This document shows positions 28,307-38,949 of a DNA stretch of 39,468 nt, piece by piece. The position numbers and the translations under genes are program-made. Under the pieces are notes generated by a model. It was not told the DNA's origin. It did no database searches and saw nothing but the letters and a program-made list of their open reading frames with translations. This DNA is from an uncultured Acidobacteriota bacterium (lineage in GTDB: Bacteria > Acidobacteriota > UBA6911 > CAINFC01): positions 1 through 39,468 of the forward strand of contig CAINFC010000063.1 in assembly GCA_903847975.1 (NCBI GenBank), read 5' to 3'. Each line of letters begins with the position of its first letter. Position 1 is the stretch's first letter.

Positions 28307-30766
28307 TCAACGACGACTGTCTGCCGGGCTATTTTCCATAATCTCCCGGATTTTTCCGGCCATCTCCCTCAGGGTATACGGCTTTTGGATAAAGTGAATG
28401 CCCGGCTCCAGGACGCCGTGATGGGCGATGACATCCGCCGTATATCCCGACATGAACAGGCATCTCAGCTGCGGGAAGATCTCCAGCAGCCGAAAGGACA
28501 AATCCCGGCCGTTCATTTCCGGCATCACGACATCGGTGATGGCCAGGTGAATCGGCCCGGCGTGCTCCCGGGCCAGGCGGATCGCCTCCCCTGGAGACAG
28601 GGCCGCAAGCACCGCGTACCCCAGGTGTTCGAGCATTTGGGCGGTCAGCTGCAGCATGGCCGGCTCGTCTTCGACCAGCAGGATCGTCTCGTGCCCCATG
28701 GGAAGAGAATCCTGCTCGCTGTCATGATGCTCCTCCAACCCGGAGGTCAGATAACGTGGAAAGTAGACTTTAATGGAGGTCCCTTCCCCAATCTCGCTAT
28801 TTACTTTGATGGTCCCATAATTCTGCTTCACGATGCCGAAGACCGTGGAAAGGCCCAGGCCGGTTCCTTTTCCCTTTTCCTTGGTGGTGAAAAAGGGTTC
28901 AAATATATTCTCCCGGGTTACCCGATCCATGCCGCATCCGTTATCGGTTACCGAAAGCATCACATATTCGCCGGGCGCATATCCGAAAGGATCCGCAAAT
29001 CCGCCGGCTTCCAGCTCCACGTTGGCCGTTTCGATGATCACTTTCCCGATGCCCTGAATCGCATCCCGGGAATTGATGCACAGATTCGCCAGGATCTGGT
29101 TCAGCTGCGAGGGATCCATGCGAACCGACCACAGGCTTTTTCCCGGCTGCCAGATGAGGTCGATGTCCTCGCCGATCAGGCGCCGCAGCATTTTCAGCAG
29201 ACCTTCCATGGCCGCGTTGATATCGACCACTTTGGGTTCGATCGCCTGGCGGCGGGCAAACGCCAAGAGCTCACGGGTCAGATCGGCGGAGCGATGGCCG
29301 GAGGTGATTATTTCCTGGAGTGCGGTATAGATGGGATGTGAGGAATCGAGGGACATGCTGGCCAATTCCGCCTGCATCAGGATCACGCCCAGCATATTGT
29401 TAAAGTCGTGGGCTACTCCTCCGGCCAGACGCCCCACCGCTTCCATCTTCTGAGCCTGCAGCAGCTGGGCCTCGAGCTTTTGACGCTGAACCTCGGCCTC
29501 TTTGCGCTCGGTTATGTCCCGGCAAAGAATCACGATGGCGCCCACATCCCGATTATGCAGAAGGTTCTGTGCCGATCCCTCGACCCAGCGCATCACTCCG
29601 TCCCTACGTCTTATCCGGTATTCCGCACTTTGTGTGATTCCCGGATGCCCTACGACCTGCTGCCAGACTTCCGATAACCGCGCCCGGTCTTCGTCCTGCA
29701 CGATTTCGAATCCGCTCCGACCGATTCTCTCCGCCGCATGAAATCCGTTGATGCGGCTCATGGACGGGCTCTCGTAGAGAACCCTGCCCTCCGCATCGGT
29801 AAAAATGAAACCGTCGATACTGTTCTCGACCACGGCTCGAAATTTGGCTTCGCTGGTTCGCAAGTCCTCGACCGCTTTCTTACGCTCGGTAATATCGCGC
29901 ATGAAAGCGAAAACCAAACCGCCGTTTTCCGCCACGTACTGCAAGCTGACTTCCACGTCATAGGAGGAGCCGTCCTTTCGCCGATACCTGCTTTCGAACC
30001 GATCCGCGCCGGTTTGGCTGAGGTCCGCAAGGCGCCGGGCTGTTTCACCGGGGGACTCCGCCACTTCCAGGTCGGAAATGCTCATCTGCAGCAGGGACCC
30101 CAGGCGGTAGCCGCTCATCCGGCACAGAGCCTCATTGGCTTCCAGTAACCTGCCCTGCATGTCCAGGCAGCAGAATCCGTCGAGTGCGACCCGGGAAATG
30201 GTATCCGCCCGTTTTTCGAAAAGGGCGATCTTCCGACGGCTCTCGATCTCCCTCATTTTTTTCAGGCCGCTCTCGCACAGAATGGTAATCAGTCCTTTGA
30301 TGAAAAACAGGTAGTGGTTGAGCTGATCCTGGGTCCAGACCGGGACCTTCTTCACGGCAGAAAGATAGTCTTCTTCGTCAAATCCGAACTTCCGGGCCTG
30401 GGACCGGAAAAACTCCATATCGGGTTCTTCCAGGAAGAACTGGCCGGTAAAGTAGTTGCCGTAATGGACTGATTCGATGATGATCGGCGTGGCGTTGTCC
30501 ACCAGGCCGTGCGGACATCGATAGGTGACCGCGGGGTTGGCTTCCTCCAGGTGGCTGAGGATATACTGATCGCTCTTGATGCACTCGCGCTCGCAATCCG
30601 GATGTTTGCGGTGAAACCGGGTGCAGATTTCCTGCCAGGCAGTGGCCGTGAGCACGTTGCCTTCATTGTCGATCAGGGAGGCAGGAAAGGAATAGATCTC
30701 ATTGAGCCGGTCCTGCAGGATCTGCAGCTGCGGAATGTCGATTAAATCCTGGAGCCGATAGGCCAT
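28307..30766 (-). CDS. PocR-PAS-PAS hybrid histidine kinase with receiver
   Basis: 819 aa, soluble. Domains: PocR ligand-sensor (~1-165) with [10 protein letters not shown] and YRCPHGLVD cysteine motifs; PAS1 (~185-300); PAS2 (~305-425); HisKA with phospho-acceptor His453 in [11 protein letters not shown]; HATPase with N-box Asn565, [24 protein letters not shown]; and a receiver (~693-810) with phospho-Asp745 in ITDVVMP. PocR domains are thought to bind small organic ligands; here the ligand is unknown. AAGGAG lies five bases before the ATG at 30766, which fits better than the GTG at 30769. It is the last gene of the operon that begins with the hydrogenase genes, 18 bp after the HAMP protein. 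No separate DNA-binding regulator is adjacent. Confidence 0.93.
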
Positions 30767-30784
30767 CACCGCTCCTTTTCCGAA

Positions 30785-31363: not shown

Positions 31364-31825
31364 TCAATGGCAGGACCGGCAGAGCTGGCCGGAATTGTTT
31401 TTCTGAACCAGAAAATAGGTGTTATGGCGTGCGGAGCGCCGGAACATGCCGGAAAAAAGGCTGGTGCTTTTCCAGGGCTCGGAGTCGAACCTCGGTCGGG
31501 TCAGGTCGTGGCAGGTGATGCAGGCGGTCTGCCCCTTGCTGTTGAGCCGCAGGACGGCGGGCAGCCGGGCATCGATCAGCGAACCGACGGAGTGATGTCC
31601 TTCCACCACATTCTTATGGCACTTAAGACAGAAAAAGCTGCAGGCCCGGGCCAGGAAGTCCTTCGAGGGATCGGGCCCCGGAGAAGGATGGCAACCCCCG
31701 CATTCCGCAGCCGGCTTGGAAAGGAAGGGCATAACCGCCATGGCCTCCCGGTCCGGCAGCTGGCTGAACAGAATTCCGGTGGCACTGATAAGCAGCAACA
31801 AGGAACCATGGATCGTCCATTTCAT
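31364..31825 (-). CDS. Small tetraheme cytochrome c
   Basis: 153 aa with an uncleaved-anchor or signal-type N-terminal hydrophobic stretch (residues ~7-22). Four heme motifs: CGGCH (42-46), CLKCH (66-70), CITCH (102-106) and CRSCH (149-153); additional His residues (for example HH at 77-78 and His134) can serve as distal ligands. The final heme motif is the very end of the protein, so the C-terminal residue is the heme-ligating His. It sits 12 bp after the outer-membrane barrel gene, suggesting a barrel-cytochrome pair for electron transfer at the outer membrane, or a periplasmic carrier serving the membrane sensor just downstream. Confidence 0.9.
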   Translation of the reverse strand: MKWTIHGSLLLLISATGILFSQLPDREAMAVMPFLSKPAAECGGCHPSPGPDPSKDFLARACSFFCLKCHKNVVEGHHSVGSLIDARLPAVLRLNSKGQTACITCHDLTRPRFDSEPWKSTSLFSGMFRRSARHNTYFLVQKNNSGQLCRSCH

Positions 31826-33252: not shown

Positions 33253-34875
33253 TCAGGCGGTACGAGCCTGCGGTTCGGACGAAGAGGAGGCTCCCAGCTG
33301 AAACCGGTCCACCATCCGGTAAAGCTTTTGCATTTCGGCATCCAGCTCTCCTGCCGCCTGCTGCAATTTCTCGGCACGAACGGTGTTCTGCCGGGTGACA
33401 TCGCGGACCGATTGCACCGAGTGGCTGACCTTCTCCACACCGTGGGACTGCTTCTGACTGGAATCGGCCACCTGGTTCATCAGCGTGGCCACTTCCTGTA
33501 TCTCTTCCGTGATCCGCTCCAGGATCCGTCCGATCTGCTGCGACTGCCGCTCGCCGTTCTGCGCCAGGTCCACGGATCGGCTGGTCATGGCCTGGGTCTT
33601 GTTGGAGGCCTCCTTGGTACGCCGGGAAAGCCCGCGAACTTCTTCGGTAAACTGCTCGAACCCGGCTACCGCCTCCCCGACATGGGCCGCTTCCACGGCG
33701 GCGTTCAGGGATAGAAAATTCGTTTTCATGGCGATCTCGTCGATCTGGCTGCGGATCTTGAGCAGCTGGGCCACATCCAGGCCTTCCTTCTGCTTCTCCC
33801 CGCCGGAGGCGCTCCCTCCGGAAACCGCAATCGTATCGCCGATCTTTTCCGCCGCCTCCTTCATCTGTCGGGAGAGCCGGCGCACCTCCTCGGCCACCAC
33901 GGAAAATCCGCGGGCGGAAGCAGCCACCTTGGATGCCTTGCTGGCCGCGTCTCCGGCAATGCTGTCGGTCTTGACCGAAATGTCGTTGATCTCCCCGAGA
34001 ATGCTGGAGGTTTCCCTGGCCGCCTCCGAAAGGACGCTCATCTCCTCCACCATGGCCACCGCGGCGCGGTTTCCGTCGCGGATGATCCCGTTGGCCTCCT
34101 CGGTAATCTTCCGGGTCTTCCCGGTAATCTGCTCGTTTTCCCGGCAGATGCCGATGATCGTTCCGATTTCCTCTGCGGTCTGGTCCAGGCAGCGGGTCTG
34201 CACCCCGGCCCCTTCACCCAGTTCCTGGGCGCTTTCTCCGATATGCTCGCTGACGGCGGAAACGCTGATCACCGATTCCGCCATCTGGCTGACGGCCGAA
34301 TGGAGTGCCCCGCCTGTGGAATTCAGGGCTTTCTTGATGCGGTTGTGATCGCCCCGATAGCTGCCGGTCATTTTGGCCGTCAGGTCGTACTGCGCCAGGC
34401 TGCCCAGCACCACGCTGGCCGCCTGCACCGGCTCAATAACCGCATCCAGCGTTTCATTCACGCCGCGGATCAAATCCTCCCACTTCCCCTTGTAATCCCA
34501 GCTGTTGCCCCGCGTGTTCAGTTTTCCCTCCTGAACCGCTTTGGTGAGGTACTGGGTTTCCTGATGCATACCGTACATAATGGCCAGCAGGGTATTCAGA
34601 TTCCGCTTGATGCGGTCATACTCCCCTTCATAGTTTTCAATGATAAAGTCGGGCAGCACCCCATGAGCGATCTGGTCAATATAGTCGGCGGTTACCCGCA
34701 GCGGCCGGATCAGCACATCCAGCATCTGGTTGAGAAGCGCCATCAGCTCGGCCTCCGGGCCGGAAAATCTGGCCACCTCGGCCCGCGCGTTCAGGTCGCC
34801 CTTCATCATGGCGTCGATCAGCCGTCGAATCTCCCGGATGCTGTCATCCGACTGCCGTATTTCCTGCATATCCAT
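33253..34875 (-). CDS. Soluble poly-HAMP chemoreceptor (methyl-accepting protein) with two hairpin tips
   Basis: 540 aa, without any membrane segment. Residues ~14-195 look like a chain of about four HAMP-type units. The signalling part contains two copies of the coiled-coil hairpin tip: copy 1 at ~292-338 (EINDISVKTDSIAGD...ARGFSVVAEEVRRL) and copy 2 at ~377-423 (QIDEIAMKTNFLSLNAAVEA...FEQFTEEVRGL), separated by a Gly/Ser-rich, Lys/Glu-rich stretch (352-366). Copy 1 has lost the NAAxEAA core but kept the return arm; copy 2 keeps the core but has a diverged return arm. AAGGAG, inside the protease gene end, precedes ATG 34875, so it is translationally coupled to hydrogenase maturation. Position suggests cytoplasmic sensing of hydrogenase state. 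No CheA, CheW or CheR gene is in the window. Confidence 0.9.
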   Translation of the reverse strand: MDMQEIRQSDDSIREIRRLIDAMMKGDLNARAEVARFSGPEAELMALLNQMLDVLIRPLRVTADYIDQIAHGVLPDFIIENYEGEYDRIKRNLNTLLAIMYGMHQETQYLTKAVQEGKLNTRGNSWDYKGKWEDLIRGVNETLDAVIEPVQAASVVLGSLAQYDLTAKMTGSYRGDHNRIKKALNSTGGALHSAVSQMAESVISVSAVSEHIGESAQELGEGAGVQTRCLDQTAEEIGTIIGICRENEQITGKTRKITEEANGIIRDGNRAAVAMVEEMSVLSEAARETSSILGEINDISVKTDSIAGDAASKASKVAASARGFSVVAEEVRRLSRQMKEAAEKIGDTIAVSGGSASGGEKQKEGLDVAQLLKIRSQIDEIAMKTNFLSLNAAVEAAHVGEAVAGFEQFTEEVRGLSRRTKEASNKTQAMTSRSVDLAQNGERQSQQIGRILERITEEIQEVATLMNQVADSSQKQSHGVEKVSHSVQSVRDVTRQNTVRAEKLQQAAGELDAEMQKLYRMVDRFQLGASSSSEPQARTA

Positions 34876-34876
34876 T

Positions 34877-35350
34877 TTACTGCTCCTTGCAACTGATTCG
34901 GTACCTGCCGACTTGCCTTTTCACTTCTGCGACCGCTTCGGGGATGGCTGCCGCAACTTCCCCGGATAACGGCGCGCCCAGTTCCGAGAAGTTCCGGCCT
35001 TCCACTCCCACCAGCACTACTTCCCTTGGCATTCTTTCATTATATAAAATCCGGCCCAGTTCGATCACTTCCCGCACCCCCAGGCCGTGCGGCGTAACCG
35101 CCGCTCCCCCCGGCCGGGGCAGCCGGTCCCAGTCCAGTACGTGAATGGTCCCCGGCGGTTGCCCCAGCTGGACGGCATCGACGATGACCAGCAGGTCGTC
35201 GGCCTCCAGCAGATCCAGCAGTTGAATCCCGCTGGTTCCCAGCAGGAAAACCTTTTCCCGGTGGCCCAAGCCTTCCTTCATCAGCGCTTCGAATACCGCG
35301 CCGCCCGCCGCATCGTCACCAGCCAGCGAATTCCCGATGCATACGATCAT
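34877..35350 (-). CDS. [NiFe]-hydrogenase maturation endopeptidase (HyaD/HybD-like)
   Basis: 157 aa, typical length. It removes the C-terminal peptide of the hydrogenase large subunit after nickel insertion. Visible family marks: GNSLAGDDAAG at the N-terminus (metal-ligand acidic residue in GDD), IVDAVQLGQPPG in the middle (second acidic ligand), TPHGLGVREVIELG (the metal-binding His and LxxxL region), and VGVEGRNFS near the end. Its expected target is the large subunit encoded 736 bp upstream in the same operon. The stop codon is one base before the chemoreceptor start. The ribosome site of this gene is weak, but it lies only 22 bp after the previous stop. Confidence 0.92.
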   Translation of the reverse strand: MIVCIGNSLAGDDAAGGAVFEALMKEGLGHREKVFLLGTSGIQLLDLLEADDLLVIVDAVQLGQPPGTIHVLDWDRLPRPGGAAVTPHGLGVREVIELGRILYNERMPREVVLVGVEGRNFSELGAPLSGEVAAAIPEAVAEVKRQVGRYRISCKEQ

Positions 35351-35372
35351 GGCTGTTCTATTCCGGACCGCA

Positions 35373-35834
35373 CTACTGCATTTCCAGGTCGATCCGGCAT
35401 TCTTCTCCGACCGACTCGATGTTCGACTTGGTGGGCCGGGAAGTCAGCTCATTCAATACGCCGTCGAGGTAGGCGTGAAACAGGCGGCAGAGGGTTCCCC
35501 CCAGCGGAAGATCCCTCGACTGGCAGACTTTGCGGATGACGCAGCGGCGAAAGTGAATCCTCGCTCCGGAGGGGGTGCAGTTCTCACCGTTGAAATCGAA
35601 CCCCCGCTGCATCTGCCGGGCGGCGGCCTGCACCACCTCTTCGAGACGGGGATCGGGAAAATAGACCGGCATCTTTTTTCCGTGGTTACGCCCGGCAATC
35701 CTCCCCACCGGCGCGATAGCCCCGCCCATCAGGTCGTCGATGGTGGCAGCGAAAATGTCCATCAGGAAGGACACTTCGGTCATGGCCATTTCGTGATCCT
35801 TCCGGCTCAGATTCTGCGGTGTGGCCGCGCTCAT
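35373..35834 (-). CDS. Cysteine-bearing V4R-like protein, paralogue 2
   Basis: 153 aa, soluble. The C-terminal half has the look of a V4R/small-ligand-binding fold: FRRCVIRKVCQ, LPLGGTLCRLFHAYLDGVLN, and VGEECRIDL. It is clearly related to the 170-aa protein encoded at 38437-38949, sharing four cysteine positions (here Cys98, 104, 116, 146) and an N-terminal helical segment ending in a Gly-rich turn. The start overlaps the ferredoxin stop (ATGA). I cannot name a function. Four shared cysteines suggest metal or Fe-S binding, or thiol redox; position between ferredoxin and maturation protease suggests a hydrogenase-specific accessory or sensory role. Confidence 0.75.
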   Translation of the reverse strand: MSAATPQNLSRKDHEMAMTEVSFLMDIFAATIDDLMGGAIAPVGRIAGRNHGKKMPVYFPDPRLEEVVQAAARQMQRGFDFNGENCTPSGARIHFRRCVIRKVCQSRDLPLGGTLCRLFHAYLDGVLNELTSRPTKSNIESVGEECRIDLEMQ

Positions 35835-36082
35835 AGGAAAGCCTCCTTTTTCCTGCAGAACTGCAGGTCCCGATAAAAATTCTTAACCACAGGAAAGTCG
35901 GAGTGGGTAATGGATTTGGAAGGGCACAGGTAGCTGCAGCTTAGGCACCCGATGCAGTCTTCGCTCTCGCGGACCCGCGCCTTGCGTGCCGGCTCGTCGA
36001 ACTCAAAAACCTCGGTGGGGCAGATGTCCACGCACATGCGGCAGCCGCGGCATCCGGATTCGTTGATCTCCACATGAACCAT
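35831..36082 (-). CDS. 2[4Fe-4S] ferredoxin
   Basis: 83 aa. Two 4Fe-4S motifs: CRGCRMCVDICP (residues 11-22) and CIGCLSCSYLCP (42-53), each CxxCxxCxxxCP. After the second cluster there is a ~30-residue extension ending in basic residues. The strong ribosome site GGAGGTGAAGT precedes ATG 36082, and the gene follows the hydrogenase large subunit by three bases. It probably carries electrons to or from the hydrogenase small subunit, filling the role that diaphorase or MvhD-type subunits have elsewhere; that role is inferred from position. Confidence 0.93.
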   Translation of the reverse strand: MVHVEINESGCRGCRMCVDICPTEVFEFDEPARKARVRESEDCIGCLSCSYLCPSKSITHSDFPVVKNFYRDLQFCRKKEAFL

Positions 36083-36085
36083 ACT

Positions 36086-37498
36086 TCACCTCCGCACCGT
36101 TTGAACGATTTCCTGATTGTGCCGGAAAACGATTTCCAGGGGCATTCGCCCGATGGCATGCGTGGCGCAGGACAGGCACGGGTCATAGGTGCGGATGGCA
36201 TATTCCACCGCATTGAGCAAAGCGGGATCGCCTTTTCCGACGGCGAAGGACTGCGCCGCCTGCAGGATCGACTGGTTGATGGCATCGTAATTCTGCTGGG
36301 TGGCCACAATCAGGTTGGCGGAGCGGACAATCCCCTCCTCGTCCACCTCGTATTCATGGAACAGGCTGCCGCGCGGCGCTTCCACGTGCCCCACCGCCTT
36401 CCCGGCACGCAGCTTGACCGCCACCCGGGGCTCGCCCCAAATCGCCGGACTGCGCAGGATTTCCGCCGCTTTTTCGCAGGCGTACAGCAGCTCGATAAAG
36501 CGGGCGTACATCTGCAGAAGGGTCTTGTGACAGGGATTCCCGAAAGATTGCCGGAATTCCCGGAATTCCTTGTCGGCCTCCTCGGTTTCCATGCCGTCGG
36601 CGCAGTTGATGCGTCCCAGCGATCCGACCCGGTAAGAGCGGCTTTCCTGGCCCTGGCGGATGCGCACCTTTTTCATATAAGACCACTCCACGACCGACTC
36701 CACCAGGTACTTGCTGTAATCCCGGCTGGGGAATTCCGCTACCGGAACTCCGTTTTCATCGGTAATCCGCAGCAGCCCGTCATAAAAATTGACCTTGCCG
36801 CCCTGGACGGTACCCATCATCCAGGCGGGCATGGACCAGCTTCCCAGCTTGTCGGAGTGCTTCTCCAGCTGACGCAGCAGCAGCTCCTTACCCACGGCCA
36901 GCAGCTCCCGGACCAGGCGCAGCGCTTCCGCGGCCCATCCCTCCAGCGTCGCATGGTTTTCCTTGTCGAGGGCAAAGGTGATCCCGCCGGGAACGGCAGT
37001 CACCGGATGCACGCCGCGCCCTCCTACCATTTCGTTGATTTTCTGCCCCAGAGTCCTCAGCCGCAGGGCCTTCCGGGTCAGCTCCGGCGCGGCTTCCGCC
37101 ATGGCGGCGATATTCCGCACCGCAGGGTCGGCATCGAATCCCATGATCAGATCGGGTCCTTCCAGGGCGAAAAGCGCCAGGGCGTGGGAGTGAATGAAAT
37201 GCCCCATGTAGAGCAGCTCCCGCAGCAGACGTCCGGCCGGCGGCGGGTCGACTCCTGTCAGTGCATCCAGCGCCTTGGCTGCCGCCAGGTGATGAGCCGA
37301 GGGGCAAACCCCGCAGATGCGGGCGGTAATCAGCGGCATCTTGTCCGCCTCCATTCCCACCAGGATGCGCTCAAAGCCGCGCAACTCGTTCACCACCAGT
37401 CCGGCGCCGGCGACCGACCCATCGTCGGTCATGTCCAGGAACACCTTGGCGTGCCCCTCAATCCGGGTGACCGGGTCGACAAGAACCATTCGTTTCAT
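36086..37498 (-). CDS. [NiFe]-hydrogenase large (catalytic) subunit, group 3-like
   Basis: 470 aa. It holds the Ni-Fe(CN)2(CO) site that splits or makes H2. Four nickel-site cysteines are present: RICGVC (Cys62, Cys65) and DPCLSC (Cys441, Cys444), with the VDPVTRIEGHA opening at residues 7-17. After ATH447 a 23-residue extension (AIGRMPLEIVF...) remains, the expected peptide removed by the maturation protease. Sequence style matches cytosolic group 3 (Mvh/Hox-like) enzymes: no Tat signal on the partner subunit. The ATG at 37498 overlaps the small-subunit stop (ATGA) and has GGAGG upstream; an in-frame ATG nine codons earlier is inside the small-subunit gene. No hypA-F genes are in the window. 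Confidence 0.95.
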   Translation of the reverse strand: MKRMVLVDPVTRIEGHAKVFLDMTDDGSVAGAGLVVNELRGFERILVGMEADKMPLITARICGVCPSAHHLAAAKALDALTGVDPPPAGRLLRELLYMGHFIHSHALALFALEGPDLIMGFDADPAVRNIAAMAEAAPELTRKALRLRTLGQKINEMVGGRGVHPVTAVPGGITFALDKENHATLEGWAAEALRLVRELLAVGKELLLRQLEKHSDKLGSWSMPAWMMGTVQGGKVNFYDGLLRITDENGVPVAEFPSRDYSKYLVESVVEWSYMKKVRIRQGQESRSYRVGSLGRINCADGMETEEADKEFREFRQSFGNPCHKTLLQMYARFIELLYACEKAAEILRSPAIWGEPRVAVKLRAGKAVGHVEAPRGSLFHEYEVDEEGIVRSANLIVATQQNYDAINQSILQAAQSFAVGKGDPALLNAVEYAIRTYDPCLSCATHAIGRMPLEIVFRHNQEIVQTVRR

Positions 37499-38430
37499 AA
37501 GCTTTCCTCCACTTCCGCAATCCACTTCCGGATCAGGAAGGTCGATTTTTCGCCGATCATGCGCGAGGCCATGGCATAGGAATAGTGCGACTTGGCCGAC
37601 CGCTCCATCGCCTTGATAATGACCGGCTGCTCCAGCCGGGTCAGTCGGGCCATCCGGTCGGCAACCTCGGTGCGGATGTCCCGGTTGGGTTCGGTGAGAA
37701 TCTCCATCGTCGGACCGGCGCAGCCGGTGCAGGGTACTCCGTTTTTCGGGCAGGGCGCCAGGCAGCGGTCCAGGGTTACCGATCCGAGGCAGACATATCC
37801 CTGGCTCAGCAGGCAGAGGCTGGGATCCGGGATTCCTTCGTGGTAGGACTGGATGCGGTCCGTATCGCAGCGGTCCATGTTCCTCTGGCAGTGGGCGCAG
37901 ACCGCCTGGTCCTGGGCCTTGGGCGCCCGCCCTTCGATCAGCGCCAGAAGGGCGTCAAAGATGAAGGTCGGATGCGGCGGGCAGCCTGCCAGGTAGAGAT
38001 CCACATCCACGACCTCGTCGATGGGCGTTACGATTTTTTCCAGGGAATCGATCATCTCTCCCGGCGGGACGGACGTTTCCGTGGTTGGGTTGTTCCGGTA
38101 GGCCCGGTCCAGCAGCTCCTCGCGGGTGTGCGCCAGGGCGGCCCCGGGGATACCCCCATAGACCGCACAGGTCCCGAAGGCAATCAGGCTTTTGCAGCTT
38201 TTGCGCATCTTCTCCGCGGCATGGCGGTCATGCTCGTTCCGGATAGCTCCGGTGAGGATTCCCACATCGGCGGGAGGATAATCCTTCTGGTCGGTCAGCA
38301 CCGGACAGCGCTGGATCTGCACATAGCCCAGCACGTCGAGTATTTTTTCATGCAGATCCACGATGGCGCAGTGGCACCCGCCACAGGCGCTCAGCCAGTC
38401 GGTATTCAGGCGGACTTTATTGTTTTCCAT
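37495..38430 (-). CDS. [NiFe]-hydrogenase small subunit with extra Fe-S motifs, group 3-like
   Basis: 311 aa, no signal peptide. It carries the electron-relay clusters. Proximal-cluster ligands: SACGGCHCAIVDLHE (Cys16, Cys19), then FGTCAVYGG and LAGCPPHP. The C-terminal part has a cysteine-rich block (CAHCQRN, CDTDR, CLLSQGYVCLGSVTLDRCLA, PCPKNGVPCTGCAGP) consistent with two more clusters, as in MvhG-like group 3 small subunits. The last ~60 residues form a helical tail. It starts six bases after the V4R-like gene at 38437 and overlaps the large subunit start by four bases. The ribosome site is weak, so coupling to the preceding gene is likely. Confidence 0.95.
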   Translation of the reverse strand: MENNKVRLNTDWLSACGGCHCAIVDLHEKILDVLGYVQIQRCPVLTDQKDYPPADVGILTGAIRNEHDRHAAEKMRKSCKSLIAFGTCAVYGGIPGAALAHTREELLDRAYRNNPTTETSVPPGEMIDSLEKIVTPIDEVVDVDLYLAGCPPHPTFIFDALLALIEGRAPKAQDQAVCAHCQRNMDRCDTDRIQSYHEGIPDPSLCLLSQGYVCLGSVTLDRCLAPCPKNGVPCTGCAGPTMEILTEPNRDIRTEVADRMARLTRLEQPVIIKAMERSAKSHYSYAMASRMIGEKSTFLIRKWIAEVEESL

Positions 38431-38436
38431 GGCAAC

Positions 38437-38949
38437 CTACGCAGGTAATGGATTCTGTTTGCGGAACAGGGTCAATCGCTTGTAACAGGCGTTCTCCCCG
38501 GCATGAACAATCTCCAGCCGGGAGGAATAGCCGGTGATGTTTTTCAGGGCTCCGGAAAAAAAGCCGAACATCATATTGCAGAGCGATCCTTTCTGCGGAT
38601 GCCCGTAGCAGAAAAGAGACTGGCGGATCATGCAGTCGCGGAAAACCAGCATGATCTCTTCCCCCTCCTGGCTCAGGTGTACCATTTCCTTCTCGGATTT
38701 CTTTTTGAACGGTTCGAAGGCCCAGAGACAGTGGTTCTTATAAAGAATGGAAGATACTTCCTGTAGCGCGTCCTGGAGGTCGTCCACACGGTTGGCGCCC
38801 GAGGAAAACTGCAGGCCGAGCTTTTCGCCGGCCAGATAGGAAATGCTTTTGGAGGGATCTCCCAGCGCTTCCTCCAACCCGGCCGCCATGGCTCCCAGGA
38901 AATTCATGGCTTCCAGCAAATCGCTGCGCAACGAATCTGTTTCCGACAT
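38437..38949 (-). CDS. Cysteine-bearing V4R-like protein, paralogue 1 (first gene of the operon)
   Basis: 170 aa, soluble. An N-terminal helical part (SDLLEAMNFLGAMAAGLEEA) leads to a domain with FRDCMIRQSLFC, QKGSLCNMMFGFFSGALKNI and HAGENACYKRL, i.e. Cys106, 114, 124 and 155 at positions matched in the protein encoded at 35373-35834. The spacing of a Cys pair, an LC motif in a helix and a final Cys before a strand resembles V4R/hydrocarbon-binding domains, an assignment I make with moderate confidence. GGGAGGG stands four bases before ATG 38949. It is the leading gene of the leftward hydrogenase operon. Function unknown; a redox or ligand sensor, or a hydrogenase accessory protein, is plausible. 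Confidence 0.75.
   Translation of the reverse strand: MSETDSLRSDLLEAMNFLGAMAAGLEEALGDPSKSISYLAGEKLGLQFSSGANRVDDLQDALQEVSSILYKNHCLWAFEPFKKKSEKEMVHLSQEGEEIMLVFRDCMIRQSLFCYGHPQKGSLCNMMFGFFSGALKNITGYSSRLEIVHAGENACYKRLTLFRKQNPLPA

Follow-up and report, generated by a model that had tools for sequence, protein, structure and literature searches.

The stretch of DNA analysed here, a window of 39,468 nucleotides, encodes an MCP-like protein that, judged by its sequence, corresponds to a canonical receptor with one additional 82-residue unit, and several features of the gene point to a tandem duplication of the receptor tip inside the gene. Few segments in bacterial signalling are as strongly conserved as the receptor tip, and in place of the single near-invariant hairpin tip expected of PF00015 this protein has two altered ones (Table 1). 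We favour, with a probability of about 40%, a reading in which the protein would form one longer antiparallel hairpin whose turn has moved to the linker between the two tips, and in which it would act as a non-adapting signal rod or as a scaffold.

Table 1. Positions in the window of the MCP-like gene, its parts and the genes upstream
Feature	Position	Strand	Residues or size	Basis or remark
Upstream genes, same tightly packed run	34877..38949	(-)		170-aa ORF, hydrogenase small subunit, large subunit, ferredoxin-like, 153-aa ORF, maturation protease
MCP-like gene, soluble product	33253..34875	(-)	540 aa	ORF intact
Four HAMP-like units	34297..34842	(-)	about 12-57, 58-103, 104-150, 151-193	Pfam and sequence scan
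Coiled coil N-terminal arm	33994..34314	(-)	188-294	sequences aligned by eye
Tip copy 1	33838..33993	(-)	295-346	tip profile; straight helix in AlphaFold2
Insertion relative to single-tip relatives	33748..33993	(-)	82 residues (295-376)	comparison with relatives
Linker SGGSASGGEKQKEG, glycine-rich	33781..33822	(-)	352-365	predicted loop, proposed new turn
Tip copy 2	33592..33747	(-)	377-428	core retained, return arm altered at its start
C-terminal arm	33295..33591	(-)	429-527	without methylation-site consensus

A soluble MCP-like protein encoded by the last gene of a hydrogenase operon

PF00015 (MCPsignal) of Pfam matches the protein in two stretches with 109.9 bits, against a cut-off of 34.6, and a genome-wide search also listed the two stretches separately. 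The Pfam scan of the protein matched HAMP_2 twice, gave a weak HAMP match at residues 12-53 and detected no PAS domain; together, residues 12-193 make up four HAMP-like units. No transmembrane segment was detected, the highest 19-residue Kyte-Doolittle mean being 1.36, which bears out the description in the initial annotation of a fully soluble protein with about four HAMP-like units.

The gene is the last in a tightly packed NiFe-hydrogenase operon, whose genes overlap or are separated by short gaps. The hydrogenase small subunit matches VhuG best and the large subunit VhuA, and because both matches lie under the curated cut-offs we regard the hydrogenase as related to VhuG/VhuA without assigning it to them. 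Two small ORFs of the run (38437-38949 and 35373-35834) look related in their C-terminal parts, with 30% identity over 50 residues, and the 153-aa ORF has a weak ATC_hydrolase match only. Downstream of the MCP-like gene on the same strand, 28307-30769 encodes a PocR-PAS-PAS histidine kinase with a receiver domain. A probable c-type cytochrome, small and with CxxCH motifs, is encoded at 31364-31825, downstream of a 439-aa protein without a Pfam match. A conserved linkage between hydrogenase and MCP is ruled against by tblastn, which found no MCP beside 13 related hydrogenase loci, some of them short and three of them located elsewhere in the same genome; the position of the gene suggests a functional link of the MCP-like protein to the state of the hydrogenase, which is conjecture. 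The genome has chemosensory systems, as indicated by 15 CheW-domain matches. On a different contig from the MCP-like gene (C103, 11260-12279), a 1077-aa frame carries three CheW matches and possibly encodes a multi-CheW or CheA-CheW protein.

Two copies of the receptor tip within one gene

A tip profile made from 93 other MCP tips, 52 residues in length, gave two full-length matches in the protein, at residues 295-346 (32.7 bits) and 377-428 (54.8 bits), with copy 2 following copy 1 at an offset of exactly 82 residues and without gaps. The local score of copy 1 against copy 2 was 110, compared with a mean of 28.7 (sd 5.4) and a maximum of 53 in 2000 shuffles. These results confirm the two tip-like segments that the initial annotation had reported and also their location, although the residue numbers given there were a few residues off (295, not 292). 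Since both segments match the tip profile, the possibility that one of them is plain coiled coil unrelated to the tip is ruled out, as is a frameshift in copy 1, because the other reading frames yield no tip. An artificial duplication through an assembly or sequencing error, a concern raised at the outset, is likewise ruled out: the two 52-codon tip segments are only 54% identical in DNA, and the third-position GC of codons is even along the gene.

Relatives align to the protein up to about residue 292 and resume from about residue 372. Compared with a canonical paralogue, the N-terminal arm runs gapless into tip copy 1 over residues about 226-303 in an alignment made by eye (the automatic alignment places small gaps at the N-terminal arm and tip 1), and compared with canonical relatives the C-terminal arm is ungapped from tip 2 onward. 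Six residues (K8, V23, S41, R42, K45 and K50 in tip numbering) are common to both copies, each being present in no more than about 5% of the 93 other tips, and these shared rare residues favour an intragenic tandem duplication over capture of the insert from another MCP gene.

Distribution of the double tip

A protein search spanning both tips in 396 genomes of the phylum returned only the MCP-like gene itself at E up to 1e-11, and neither a plasmid search with the double-tip segment nor a viral contig search with the whole protein gave a match, so that the search for double-tip homologues proposed in the initial annotation came back empty in these collections. An exact DNA pattern search of the phylum's genomes also matched only the MCP-like gene, and a slightly relaxed pattern was absent from 398 genomes of a second phylum, which is a weak bound because the stricter form of the pattern would detect only 42 of 125 known tips. 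A scan of the genome collection gave two distant relatives, each with one tip by motif scan, and the nearest relatives among the searched genomes belong to the same class. In four genomes (G099, G061, G064 and G076), ORFs of about 2200 residues repeatedly match the HAMP part of the protein and encode very long poly-HAMP proteins.

Losses in the two tip copies

Near-invariant tip positions are changed at 14 of 29 sites in copy 1 and at 10 of 29 in copy 2, as against a mean of 0.45 and a maximum of 3 in the 93 other tips. In copy 1 the NAAxEAA core is gone, as are both turn glycines (residues 295-320), and the return arm (321-346) is preserved; copy 2 has kept the NAAxEAA core and is altered in the return arm near the turn. 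Changes confined to copy 1 fall within tip positions 6-24, a span that takes in the ascending core together with the first turn glycine. Those confined to copy 2 are at position 13 and at 32-34, the majority of them in the return arm, and positions 8, 22, 23, 27, 31 and 41 are changed in both. At position 27, the second turn glycine, copy 1 has A and copy 2 has V; the invariant turn glycines thus show G-to-A at both sites in copy 1 and G-to-V at one site in copy 2, where the G-E turn sequence is retained. The numbers are small, and this pattern is suggestive of decay mostly in complementary halves rather than proof of it, in agreement with the initial annotation, which had described each copy as degenerate in a different half.

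No methylation-site consensus was found in the arms of the MCP-like protein, whereas most relatives have 1 to 4 matches to it and about two sites, each of ten residues. In addition, near-invariant tip residues, contact residues among them, are altered in each copy, which may bear on binding to CheW/CheA and on the assembly of trimers of dimers. The missing methylation sites and the altered contact residues argue against an ordinary array receptor, and the protein is probably no longer an ordinary methylated receptor.

The same losses could signify a receptor gene in decay, disabled by the tip duplication and with its tip, methylation sites and contact residues eroding without selection. The 10 to 14 near-invariant tip residues lost per copy, the complete disappearance of the methylation consensus and the empty search for a close homologue among the searched genomes of the phylum are all consistent with such erosion, yet we consider it unlikely in view of the intact frame of 540 codons, the even codon usage and the place of the gene in a tightly packed operon, and because the losses are split between the halves of the tip rather than spread evenly.

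Position of the turn

Two AlphaFold2 models were obtained, both of single chains. The model made without an alignment, for residues 186-505, consists of helices 187-352 and 360-504 joined by a low-confidence loop at 353-359 (mean pLDDT 81.3, pTM 0.48). With a 50-sequence alignment, the full protein was modelled with a helix at 226-353, a low-confidence loop at 354-365, a helix at 366-399, a break at 400-402 and a helix at 403-523 (mean pLDDT 69.7, pTM 0.40), the block-mean pLDDT being about 86-91 through copy 1 and 43-69 for residues 361-400. Both models run a straight helix across copy 1 and place a loop in the linker, and they disagree on the turn in copy 2. Within the coiled coil, helix propensity is lowest in windows of the linker, which is located near the midpoint (about 361) of the old turns at 319/320 and 401/402. 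By Foldseek, the model made without an alignment resembles long chemoreceptor hairpins (for example 9a65 chain B, TM-score 0.57, and 2ch7, 0.46-0.49) and other coiled coils as well. From these models, at most one tip copy looks able to turn. The initial annotation was right that a normal single antiparallel bundle with one tip is impossible without change; a two-tip receptor, or the longer, two-tip array that it offered as an outcome, finds no support, with copy 1 devoid of turn glycines and straight in both models.

In the arrangement that we favour, the helix would pass straight through old tip 1, reverse in the linker (about 353-365) and return through old tip 2. For the C-terminal arm to lie beside the N-terminal arm the number of reversals must be odd, and therefore copy 2 should be straight if copy 1 is straight and the linker reverses. 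With the linker as the sole turn, residues x and y would pair at x+y of about 722, which would set the conserved return arm of copy 1 alongside the conserved core of copy 2, upside down though in the canonical register, and would leave the two decayed halves to pair with each other below as ordinary coiled coil. Because the conserved halves would pair with each other in such a one-hairpin fold, each copy could lose a different half, and because the linker is close to the midpoint between the old turns, the register of the arms would be kept. A rod of this kind, without methylation sites and with altered tip residues, would be non-adapting and might relay the signal of the HAMP stack to a partner, or serve as a scaffold. 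Several observations stand against a relocated turn: the turn at 400-402 in copy 2 of the alignment-based model would clash with a single turn in the linker, a conflict that persists even though the alignment leans toward such a turn; both copies retain the hydrophobic phase of a canonical hairpin, in which nothing points to adaptation to a straight helix; G-E is kept in copy 2; the pTM values are moderate; no second example that would show conservation was found; and the linkage to hydrogenase genes was not seen in relatives. The fuller proposition, that the tip duplication moved the turn to the linker and left a full tip signature lying inverted within a longer rod, in a hydrogenase operon, we hold to be doubtful; if true, it would mean that the part of the receptor superfamily that is conserved most has undergone a topological switch in nature.

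The turn at 400-402 could instead be the only one, with copy 1, its return arm and the linker protruding as an extra arm or bulge from the N-terminal side of an otherwise canonical hairpin. Copy 2 has kept the core and part of the turn, and the best Foldseek match of the alignment-based model is the canonical Tsr hairpin 3zx6 (TM-score 0.68 by target length). In this arrangement, however, about 80 residues of amphipathic helix would have nothing to pair with, and the alignment behind the model consists of single-tip receptors and leans toward that very turn, in a region where pLDDT is low (43-69 at 361-400). MAFFT assigned every tip to copy 2. We regard a sole turn in tip 2 as quite improbable.

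A third arrangement would have both old tips turn, with the linker as a third turn, such that one chain builds the four-helix tip of two subunits and the dimer forks into two such tips, one face being specialised in each. It would account for the canonical hydrophobic phases, the full length of the copies and a glycine-rich linker near the midpoint, and natural soluble single-chain MCP signalling domains have been reported (PMC4692393). For two hairpins to pack as a four-helix tip, however, copy 1 would have to turn, and it has lost both turn glycines and forms a straight helix in the two single-chain, moderate-confidence models, which makes a forked dimer of this kind a rather unlikely outcome.

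Comparison with known systems

The poly-HAMP MCPs of the same genome and class (for example loci L003, L005 and L012) resemble the protein in their HAMP repeats and in arms that run gapless to each tip, but they have one canonical tip and methylation sites, where the protein has two altered tips and no sites. Aer2 (NCBIfam NF041847) is likewise a soluble poly-HAMP receptor, and its model matches the protein in three stretches with 228.7 bits; the match is far under the curated cut-off of 1200 bits, and the PAS domain was not found here by Pfam.

DosM receptors, which span two array layers, have two signalling domains (PMC9321776, PMC7534058), and like the protein described here they carry a pair of MCP signalling tips on a single soluble chain. 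In DosM, however, a domain is located at each end of the rod, whereas here only an 82-residue tip piece is doubled in place of two complete tandem signalling domains, and the neighbouring genes are hydrogenase genes rather than the triple-CheW cluster of the F9 system. A rod of the DosM type, with each end bearing a functional tip and two array layers linked by it, has a precedent in the DosM of the F9 system, a soluble receptor with a tandem pair of signalling domains (PMC9321776, PMC7534058). It would be a most improbable form for this protein, in which the tips are only about 82 residues apart, less than the length of either flanking arm, so that the arms would run past both tips, and in which copy 1 does not turn in either AlphaFold2 model.

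Soluble single-chain MCP signalling domains are known, for example from Rhodospirillum centenum, and have been engineered as Tsr~Tsr (PMC4692393); these also carry two tip hairpins per polypeptide. In the engineered Tsr~Tsr, whole subunits are joined end to end, while the repeat described here is internal, short and decayed, a form of tip duplication not found in the literature searched, whose scope did not take in the survey of Wuichet and Zhulin (2010). Double-signalling-domain receptors and natural single-chain receptors are thus already known, and the protein is a variant of that kind and a natural counterpart to the engineered single-chain receptors, in which the complementary halves shed by a natural duplicate would show which residues act as a unit and how a hairpin changes its turn.
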